From the NCBI RefSeq assembly GCF_000633935.1, contig NZ_KK214998.1, forward strand, positions 1,536,411 to 1,600,410: a DNA stretch of 64,000 bases, in the 5' to 3' direction. The notes under the pieces are model-generated. The model searched no databases and was not told the origin of the DNA. It saw only the letters and a program-made list of their open reading frames with translations. Position numbers and translations under genes: made by a program. Shown one piece after another: positions 21,990 to 23,551 of the stretch. Every line of letters starts with the position of its first letter. The stretch's first letter is position 1. Source of the stretch: Ectothiorhodospira haloalkaliphila ATCC 51935. GTDB lineage: Bacteria; Pseudomonadota; Gammaproteobacteria; Ectothiorhodospirales; Ectothiorhodospiraceae.

Positions 21990-22040
21990 GTCAGTCGCAT
22001 CATCCGGGATGGCGCCCTCAGGGTAGGCCATGCCAAGCAG

Positions 22041-22068
22041 ACAAAGGGGGCTCGCGAGCCCCCTTTGT
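22041..22068. terminator. Perfect 28-base palindromic terminator after the porin
   Basis: A perfect inverted repeat with ACAAAGGGGGCTCG as the left arm. The stem is GC-rich in the middle and bordered by A and T runs, so it can act on both strands. It lies 52 bases after the porin stop. Confidence 0.8.
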
Positions 22069-22144
22069 CGTGTCAGGCCCAAGCGGAGCCTGTCCGTCCA
22101 AAGCAAACAGCAAGGCGCGACCCCAGGTTCACCACGATCCAGGT

Positions 22145-22254
22145 GCATTGGGGGCGGTCCGGCTGTGGGCGGGTGTTCGCCGCAGGGATGCGGCGATCAA
22201 GCCTACAGGGACGTATTCACGGCGTCCCGCCGGCAGCCGGACCGCCCCCAATGC
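22145..22254. repeat. Structured intergenic repeat, copy 1
   Basis: A 110-base element closed by a perfect 21-bp inverted repeat (22145-22165 with 22234-22254). Inside are two hairpins: CGCCGC/GCGGCG (22178-22195) and GGGACG/CGTCCC (22208-22228). The 70-base core 22161-22230 matches copy 2 at 65 positions, in the same orientation. The outer arms differ from those of copy 2 yet pair perfectly. The rest of this gap, up to 22393, is C-rich with no further feature seen. Confidence 0.85.
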
Positions 22255-22393
22255 GCCGACCTCACCGCCAGCTGCGGACCGCCAGCCCCCAGCGGAATCC
22301 AAGCCAGCCACCACACCCCCCAACTTTACCCCCACCCCCCCATTCACTATCCTGTCCCGACCCGCCTCCACCCGCCCACAGGCACCCCACACC

Positions 22394-23290
22394 ATGGCCC
22401 ACATCCTCGGCATCGGCGTCGCCACCCTGGACATCATCAACATCGTCGACCACTACCCCGCGGAAGACGAAGAAATGCGCGCCCTCGAACAACGCGCCTG
22501 CCCCGGCGGCAACGCCGCCAACACCCTCCACGTCCTCAAACAACTGGGCCACCACTGCGACCTGGCCACCGTCCTGGCGGAAGAACCCGACGGCGACCGC
22601 CTCAAAAACCTCCTGACACAGCGCGGCATCGGCACCGACACCTGCCAGCGTCGCAGCGGCCGCACCCCCACCTCCTACATCACCCTCAACGCCACCAACG
22701 GCTCCCGCACCATCATCCACCACCGCGACCTGCCCGAACTGCAAGCCAGCCACGTCGCAAACCTCCCCCTGGACCGCTACGACTGGATCCACCTCCAGGC
22801 GCGCGACACCCACACCACCAGCCGCATCCTGCAAACCCTGCGCAGCCACCAGCCCAGCCATCGCCCCATCTCCCTCGAAGTGGAAAAGGACAGAGACGGC
22901 GTCGACATGCTCTTCGGTCAACCCGACGTCATCATCTTCTCCCGACCCTTCGTCCTCGGCCGCGGCTACGACGAACCCGAAGCCTTCCTGAGGGGCATCC
23001 ACAAACGCGTGCCCGGCGCCATCCTCATCAGCACCTGGGGCGAAGAAGGCTCCTGGGCCTGGGCCAGCCGCGACGGCCTCTACCACGCCCCCGCCTGCCC
23101 ACCCCCCCAAGTCATCGACACCCTCGGCGCCGGCGACACCTACAACGCCGGCCTCATCCACACCCTCGCCAACGGCGGCACCGTCACCCAGGCCCTCTCC
23201 AACGCCACCCGCCTGGCAGGCCACAAGGTCGGCCAACGCGGCCTCGACGGCCTGGACATCAGCATCCTGCAAAGCGAAGGCGACAACTGA
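22394..23290 (+). CDS. PfkB-family carbohydrate kinase (ketohexokinase-like)
   Basis: A 298-residue ribokinase-fold sugar kinase. It begins MAHILGIGVATLDIINIVD, has the first PfkB signature CPGGNAANTLHVLKQLG (residues 36-52) and the second, DTLGAGDTYNAGLIH, with catalytic Asp248. The sequence resembles ketohexokinases, which phosphorylate fructose at C1, but fructokinase or another sugar kinase is possible. Codons end in C more often than in most genes here, and pyrimidine runs are common. It stands alone, bracketed by two copies of the intergenic repeat. Fructose released by sucrose synthase would be a sensible substrate, although that gene is 16 kb away. Confidence 0.87.
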   Translation: MAHILGIGVATLDIINIVDHYPAEDEEMRALEQRACPGGNAANTLHVLKQLGHHCDLATVLAEEPDGDRLKNLLTQRGIGTDTCQRRSGRTPTSYITLNATNGSRTIIHHRDLPELQASHVANLPLDRYDWIHLQARDTHTTSRILQTLRSHQPSHRPISLEVEKDRDGVDMLFGQPDVIIFSRPFVLGRGYDEPEAFLRGIHKRVPGAILISTWGEEGSWAWASRDGLYHAPACPPPQVIDTLGAGDTYNAGLIHTLANGGTVTQALSNATRLAGHKVGQRGLDGLDISILQSEGDN

Positions 23291-23435
23291 GACCCGACGT
23301 ATCCATCCAAAACTTAGCGATTACTTACAGAGCTCCCGAAGTGCACCCAGGGGCGAGGTCACCCCCACCCAAGCCCTGCGATCACCCACGACCCACTCGG
23401 AGGGCACCCTAAGGCGAAGCCAATACAGCATCCGA
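23291..23435. other. Intergenic stretch before repeat copy 2
   Basis: No gene, terminator or promoter recognised. The gap between the PfkB gene and mnmG is 396 bases in all, of which the repeat at 23436-23551 is the only clear structure. The 135 bases after the repeat are C-rich and contain TAAACT (23651-23656), a possible -10 element for mnmG without a good -35. Confidence 0.4.
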
Positions 23436-23551
23436 GCCCCTTTGGGGAGGGTAAGGCTGTGCGCGGGTGTGCGCCGCATGGATGCGGCGCTCAAGCCTAC
23501 AGGGATGTATTCACGGCGTCCCGCGAACGGCCTTACCCTCCCCAAAGGGGC
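23436..23551. repeat. Structured intergenic repeat, copy 2
   Basis: A 116-base element closed by a perfect 22-bp inverted repeat (23436-23457 with 23530-23551). The inner hairpins are CGCCGC/GCGGCG (23472-23489) and GGGATG/CGTCCC (23502-23522). The C-to-T change relative to copy 1 keeps pairing as a G-U wobble. The core 23455-23524 aligns with copy 1 with five mismatches in 70. Confidence 0.85.

Follow-up and report, generated by a model that had tools for sequence, protein, structure and literature searches.

A pair of short palindromic elements on either side of a kinase gene in Ectothiorhodospira haloalkaliphila raises the question of how repeats that share nearly all of their core come to carry different outer arms that are perfectly complementary within each copy. 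The window, which is the whole stretch of 64,000 nt of DNA that was analysed, contains the PfkB-family carbohydrate kinase gene (PF00294) at positions 22394–23290 of the + strand, with a porin gene (PF13609) on one side and mnmG/gidA (PF01134) on the other. Element 1 (22145–22254, +, 110 nt) lies in the porin–pfkB gap and corresponds to a match of model R1 at C4:1558547-1558672 with 133.8 bits, and element 2 (23436–23551, +, 116 nt) lies in the pfkB–mnmG gap and corresponds to a match at C4:1559841-1559966 with 132.9 bits. The original prediction had described two co-oriented elements of these lengths flanking the PfkB gene, with which the coordinates and the PF00294 match agree, and the best 70-base core, when recomputed, gave the same identity of 65 of 70 bases. 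The 21-nt 5′ outer arm of element 1 (22145–22165, +) is perfectly complementary to its 21-nt 3′ arm (22234–22254, +), as is the 22-nt 5′ arm of element 2 (23436–23457, +) to its 22-nt 3′ arm (23530–23551, +), so the claim of perfect pairing over 21 and 22 bp also held. Apart from the two elements, the 64-kb window has no perfect inverted repeat of 18 nt or more separated by a spacer of 50–100 nt. Upstream of element 1 and just past the porin gene is a separate GC-rich palindrome (22040–22069, GACAAAGGGGG...CCCCCTTTGTC), which looks like the porin gene’s own terminator.

Inside the arms, the inner stem of element 1 pairs GCGGG (22169–22173, +) with CCCGC (22226–22230), and this stem was Watson–Crick in 195 of 195 cells across 39 own-genome copies. 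It encloses hairpin 1 (22178–22195, +), with the loop C-AGGGAU-G, and hairpin 2 (22204–22215, +), UAC-AGGGAC-GUA; the equivalents in element 2 are C-AUGGAU-G (hairpin at 23471–23490, +) and UAC-AGGGAU-GUA (23498–23509, +). On the selected strand both hairpins carry CANGGANG, a Csr/Rsm-type hexaloop in which the N positions are free. The two inner hairpins had been predicted; the accompanying claim that one change turns a G-C pair into a G-U pair did not stand, as it presupposes a GGGACG/CGUCCC pairing for hairpin 2. That pairing is possible in just 27 of 39 own copies and 93 of 127 parsed copies of the distant alignment A2 (n=137) and was rejected, the 3-bp stem UAC/GUA forming in 39 of 39 and 124 of 127, respectively. 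Because the conserved hairpin 2 is UAC-ANGGAN-GUA, the C/U change sits at a freely variable loop position. The CsrA/RsmA-type loops are absent from the earlier reading.

The search of the core across the genome and its relatives, by BLAST and then by covariance model, returned 40 copies in the own genome, the window pair included; a further 16 rows of the covariance-model listing were antisense self-matches and were left out of the 40. In the sample of relatives, model R1 matched in 14 of 40 genomes, counting the own genome. Antisense self-matches included, there were 32–39 R1 matches in each of the congeners G001, G007, G008 and G009 (39 in G007 and 36 in G009), and 1–2 in each of G002–G006. 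The copy in G002–G005 is at the same position relative to the same neighbouring ORF and is therefore vertically inherited there. In G006 (L101:3475-3807), a CcdB-family toxin gene (PF01845) was observed between two oppositely oriented element copies.

The model searches covered the Gammaproteobacteria. A pattern scan of named genomes yielded at least 120 matching stretches in Xanthomonas, Stenotrophomonas, Shewanella, Marinobacter, Alcanivorax, Methylotuvimicrobium, Pantoea, Sodalis and others, and model R2 at E 1e-5 matched at least 50 of 276 genomes and at least 45 of 215 genera in an even sample of the class, counts that are lower bounds given the stricter filters and the few candidates scored. 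Both confirm the suggestion, in the original prediction, that a similar sequence occurs in intergenic regions of other gammaproteobacteria. With one Pseudomonadaceae element as query, no phage match was found and two plasmid records matched weakly (78% over 69 nt); with one Sodalis element as query, there was no match in E. coli genomes. Of 101 distant copies examined, none fell within a called gene, genes having been called by a codon-usage script rather than a standard annotator. Among the own copies, 28 of 38 were downstream of a same-strand gene, the contexts of the 38 being convergent in 15, co-directional sense in 12, divergent in five, antisense in five and lacking a downstream gene in one. 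For the distant copies, context was drawn from the 101 of 126 that had sufficient flank, and was convergent in 30, sense in 27, antisense in 24, divergent in nine and incomplete in 11. Taken together, the copies are only loosely oriented relative to neighbouring genes.

In 39 own copies, 93.2% of cells were paired compared with 71.2% after shuffling, 30 of 40 pairs showed double changes, and none of 500 shuffles reached any of the five measures; the presence of 40 copies, with pairing beyond that of shuffles in the 39, excludes a chance origin. In A2, whose 137 copies were drawn from 100 loci (L093 and 99 of the 120 pattern-scan loci), 93.3% of cells were paired compared with 51.9% after shuffling and 37.4–42.9% after sliding. 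The covariation score was 0.855 against 0.182 for shuffled alignments, a value reached by 0 of 500 shuffles, and all 40 of 40 pairs showed double changes, a count equalled by two of 500 shuffles. Pairing in the structure thus covaries strongly, as judged against shuffled and slid controls. The A2 alignment was fitted to the structure and is biased toward it; an ungapped arm test, free of that bias, detected complementary arms in 36 of 36 own copies tested (those of the 40 with the strict motif) and in 105 of 117 distant copies. Copies without complementary arms, which would have counted against the original reading, thus numbered 12 of 117 among distant copies by the ungapped criterion and 0 of 36 in the own genome.

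Comparison of fixed sites indicated how the arms change. It had been claimed that arms are unrelated between copies and that pairing is preserved or rebuilt; the arms do differ, but many own copies have visibly related ones, and the second claim is borne out by the 36 of 36 complementary own copies and by orthologous arms that change in step. Among 40 ortholog pairs from three congeners, 31 had arms at least 80% identical and nine fell lower. The 27 ortholog pairs that aligned free of gaps and register shift had 26 Watson–Crick double changes, a count from which the 15 of the pair L387/L403 had been taken (41 minus 15). The apparent divergence of the L387/L403 arms was rejected as a register artefact of the model alignment, the arms having 2 and 3 mismatches only, and its 15 apparent double changes also inflated the raw tallies of 92 and 87. 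At the site of element 1 in G007, six pairs differ, five by Watson–Crick double changes and one by a G·U.

Small indels were found in the arms of 12 of the 40 ortholog pairs, in several cases on both sides. In L380/L238 the left arm had six mismatches and one gap and the right arm five and one, between flanks that were 91–96% identical, and gapped alignment of L371/L248 likewise gave substitutions and small indels on both arms. In most of the pairs below 80% identity other than L387/L403, gapped alignment thus pointed away from replacement of whole arm segments and toward substitutions, matched between left and right arm, together with small indels in both. No donor paralogue was found for the L371/L248 and L380/L238 arms among 93 A3 copies, the best other arm being at most 0.61 identical. 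The arms of L397/L386, L239/L400 and L376/L257 match other copies more closely (0.70–0.95), and these pairs may reflect exchange or orthology wrongly assigned. The arms are not always in step: one L254/L383 copy pair had one mismatch on the left and seven with three gaps on the right. Template switching in long inverted repeats, or quasipalindrome correction, copies one arm onto the other. The in-step change fits a combination of such copying and selection for pairing. At the pfkB locus, no clean empty site was found in G007 or G009; the pfkB–mnmG gap of G007 has the 3′ arm left, with the remainder of the element missing. By eye, the porin–pfkB gap of G009 (L262, C22) contains several tandem copies of another repeat of about 130 bp with an inner palindrome.

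The mismatches that do occur in the arms are asymmetric. Scored alike as mismatches, G·U numbered 141 and A·C 23 among the distant copies whose arms could be detected (105 of 117); 68 elements were richer in G·U and nine in A·C. The ungapped test gave 28 G·U against 10 A·C in the own copies, and a set of 21 copies from relatives gave 12 against 5, which was not significant (p 0.14). Orthologous copies in three congeners gave 41 against 9 in 30 groups, and the 20 gap-free groups 23 against 5, both counts resting on model-fitted alignments. DNA-level copying alone, being strand-symmetric, would be expected to give about equal numbers of G·U and A·C. That imperfections are mostly G·U rather than A·C therefore suggests that one single strand, the GGA strand folded as RNA or single-stranded DNA, is under selection. 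The excess was the same whether the copy followed a gene on its own strand (73:12) or was antisense to the genes on either side (24:3), so the strand effect is independent of read-through from neighbours and a simple 3′-UTR role does not explain it. The preference could come either from a transcript of the element’s own or from a stage as single-stranded DNA. By these comparisons, the description of the element as conserved, dispersed, structured and strand-selected is well supported.

On the selected strand the two hairpin loops are conserved. In A2, the hairpin 1 composition was C94 A94 N G100 G99 A100 N G93 per cent with the N positions mixed, and the stem pairs differed in kind while the loop stayed; the scan pattern had left hairpin 1 free. 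GGA was present in the hairpin 1 loop in 107 of 117 copies according to a hairpin finder, and by eye in five of the remaining 10. Among the own copies, loop 1 had GGA in 37 of 39 by script and in one more by eye, leaving one copy that lacks it; loop 1 was 5 nt rather than 6 nt in 12 of 39, and the own-copy column counts for loop 1 carry a small error where MAFFT put a gap in the wrong place. Loop 2 was ANGGAN in 37 of 39, two departing from the motif. The GGA-to-GGA gap is 20 nt in both window elements, and was 19–21 nt in 94 of the 103 copies counted (of 137) and exactly 20 nt in 78 of the 103; in the other nine it was 8–12 nt, where a further GGA may have been caught.

These features resemble CsrA sites, which are described in passages of PMC7652899 and PMC3791407 as ANGGAN hexaloops with contacts to the A and the GGA and with variable N, and for which the same passages give the SELEX consensus RUACARGGAUGU. 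Hairpin 2 of element 2 with its preceding base matches that consensus at 11 of 12 positions. Dual-site binding by CsrA is given a range of 10–63 nt and an optimum above 18 nt in a passage of PMC7652899, and the spacing in both window elements falls within that range. The own genome has two PF02599 (CsrA) matches. A CsrA gene was present in 49 of 50 element bearers (the exception being G200) compared with 193 of 226 other genomes (Fisher p 0.015), which is weak evidence because small genomes may lack both.

A sister architecture was found in the Pseudomonadaceae. At E 0.001, R2 matched 83 of 298 genomes in the family to which Halopseudomonas belongs, many of them weakly. Loci in the larger genomes had other stems, a longer hairpin 2 and no TTCACGGCG, yet two CANGGANG loops. 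This two-loop plan on different stems was present in 29 of 29 aligned copies, with the qualification that this set (A4) was gathered with R2, a model containing the GGA loops, and the loop pattern was in part selected for. The hairpin stems had no G·U excess (15 vs 16). Model R3, built from the sister architecture, matched 344 of 398 genomes of one large genus, presumably Pseudomonas, a figure that counts model matches and not loops read. A repeat of the L317 type had at least 35 BLAST matches in each of six genomes of another genus. In Halopseudomonas G300 (L328–L333), several inverted pairs consist of two different element subtypes and a similar spacer that bears a hairpin, and look like a composite unit.

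The reading that we consider probable, with moderate confidence, is that the element is a dispersed gammaproteobacterial repeat conserved as a folded RNA and that its copies are CsrA/RsmA-binding elements, binding by CsrA/RsmA being a strong prediction from loop sequence and spacing. In the strand shown, the variable arms would form a long GC-rich stem, followed by a short inner stem that leads to a junction with two hairpins. Each hairpin would offer C-ANGGAN-G, and the gap of about 20 nt would suit a single CsrA/RsmA dimer holding both sites. The GGA strand would act as RNA, whether by read-through from neighbouring genes or from a start of its own. The complementarity of the arms is probably kept by two forces together, arm-to-arm copying at replication and selection for RNA pairing, the latter of which would tolerate G·U better than A·C. 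We infer that some 40 copies, with some 80 sites, could act as a scattered sponge, docking or decoying CsrA and thereby buffering its free pool; the elements may also shield or mark the RNAs in which they lie. More tentatively, at a confidence a little short of even, a class-wide multiplying repeat may have spread tandem CsrA/RsmA docking sites in tens per genome, making up a distributed sponge that tunes the Csr/Rsm regulator, the arms of the repeat being continually rewritten in concert while the sites stay fixed.

The main rival is a single-stranded DNA mobile stage. On this account, which we regard as unlikely, the element is a REPIN/BIME- or attC-like mobile element whose folded single strand is what a transposase or recombinase reads, with the GGA loops as recognition letters for that enzyme. 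Amplification in some lineages would follow from it (39 and 36 matches in G007 and G009 vs 1–2 in G002–G005), as would the alternating arrays at Xanthomonas loci and the arrangement in Halopseudomonas G300, where eight ‘-,+’ inverted pairs account for 16 of the 18 matches, the gap within a pair being 12–51 nt, mostly about 40 nt (six pairs were read in sequence). A strand preference that is independent of the direction of neighbouring genes is also in line with it, and the mismatch asymmetry does not count against it, G-T being tolerated better than A-C in single-stranded DNA too. It is weighed down by the loops, which follow the Csr/Rsm rule of ANGGAN with free N, closed by a C-G pair that hardly varies, by the variable arms, which are ill-suited to transposon terminal repeats, and by the single closely examined site, the pfkB–mnmG gap of G007, which is without a clean empty site.

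The elements could instead be terminators or 3′-end stabilisers, with the palindrome kept for RNA stability and the GGA loops incidental, a proposal that we judge improbable. The excess of convergent over divergent contexts (30 vs 9 for distant copies, 15 vs 5 for own copies) is as it would predict, the predicted folds are very stable (−60.5 to −105.4 kcal/mol), and a T-run ends some Pseudomonadaceae copies. However, no T-run was found directly 3′ of the arm after 22254 or 23551 in the window, a separate terminator-like hairpin already lies between the porin gene and element 1, and such a function needs no CANGGANG in two loops. Very improbable is the view that these are functionless palindromic repeats, with arms matched by template switching only and a core kept by recent spread only. 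It would account for substitutions and small indels that match between the two arms at orthologous sites with flanks of 91–96% identity (L380/L238, L371/L248). Template switching is blind to strand, however, and the G·U:A·C ratio is about 6:1 for the distant copies and 4.6:1 for the orthologues free of gaps; in addition, the hairpin stems vary with constant loops across many genera. The origin of the arms in terminators already present at the insertion sites, offered as an alternative in the original prediction, was rejected, with no T-run after the window arms and with arms that change together in place.

If CsrA/RsmA does bind the folded repeat as we favour, the target load of this central post-transcriptional regulator would be set in part by a repeat that varies in number between close relatives, and titration models for Csr/Rsm that consider only CsrB/RsmZ would be incomplete. 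If true, this reading would also assign a function to repeats that are filed in Rfam as an antisense sRNA. The element offers a system for studying how arms are matched in long inverted repeats, as in-step change and strand-specific G·U tolerance occur in it together.

Core strings of 16–19 letters had no match in the literature searched, which lies mostly outside subscription journals, and an 11-letter piece matched unrelated titles only. Among the matches listed there was no title on CsrA-binding dispersed repeats, the nearest being passages on Rsm targets in Pseudomonas putida. In an excerpt of PMC7937890, intergenic targets of RsmA, RsmE and RsmI in P. putida are at, or resemble, ISPpu8 flanks, and one Rsm target in KT2440, a putative ISPpu8 site, is called a ‘long palindromic region’. 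Likened by that description only, the KT2440 palindrome is like the elements in being long, intergenic and Rsm-enriched; it differs in that the authors, in the same excerpt, tie such regions to an insertion sequence (PMC7937890). A 90-bp RsmE-responsive leader in P. chlororaphis, a 5′-UTR of 38.7% GC that an excerpt of PMC5815613 describes together with other repeats, was considered by description and set aside as a relative. Among the P. fluorescens repeat families in an excerpt of PMC2718517 is R178, of 101 bp with internal repeats, which by size and description could be a relative of the element.

Among repeat classes, the elements are like REP, BIME and REPIN sequences in being intergenic and palindromic, in having tens of copies, and in forming inverted pairs or alternating arrays in some genera (Halopseudomonas and Xanthomonas), the window pair being co-oriented instead. 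REP and REPIN sequences consist of a short palindrome with a conserved tetranucleotide foot and are associated with a RAYT transposase. Unlike REP, the unit here is a junction of 110–126 nt with two conserved loops and varying arms. In MITEs the terminal inverted repeats are the same in all copies, whereas the arms of the elements differ. A target-site duplication, a further MITE feature, would be read at a clean empty site, which the pfkB locus of G007 and G009 did not offer.

The dedicated sponges CsrB, RsmX, RsmY and RsmZ are each encoded by one to a few sRNA genes, with several to many sites per RNA. Unlike CsrB and RsmZ, the elements are scattered in tens of copies, each with two sites on a palindromic stem, and in the window no Rfam sponge family reached its gathering threshold, which only a tRNA did. 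The likeness lies in the ANGGAN hexaloop hairpins spaced for dual-site binding, as described for CsrB, RsmX, RsmY and RsmZ in passages of PMC7652899 and PMC3791407.

The closest known counterpart is Ysr224 (Rfam RF02770, ‘Yersinia sRNA 224’), which is the same element seen on the opposite strand. An excerpt of PMC9029176 places it among the top 20 most prevalent Rfam sRNAs and describes it as temperature-responsive, and an excerpt of PMC12112432 describes multiple copies in Yersinia ruckeri with differing expression profiles. Rfam models the UCC strand, and the excerpts of PMC9029176 and PMC12112432 do not describe a CsrA link, arm variability or a class-wide family. The Ysr224 model scored 82.9 bits on the minus strand of the Sodalis copy L169:7247-7352 (gathering threshold 70), and 44 and 26.9 bits on the minus strand of the window copies, below that threshold. 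The Ysr224 consensus is the reverse complement of both GGA hairpins and their linker, and Ysr224 thus appears to have been modelled on the antisense strand of the element.
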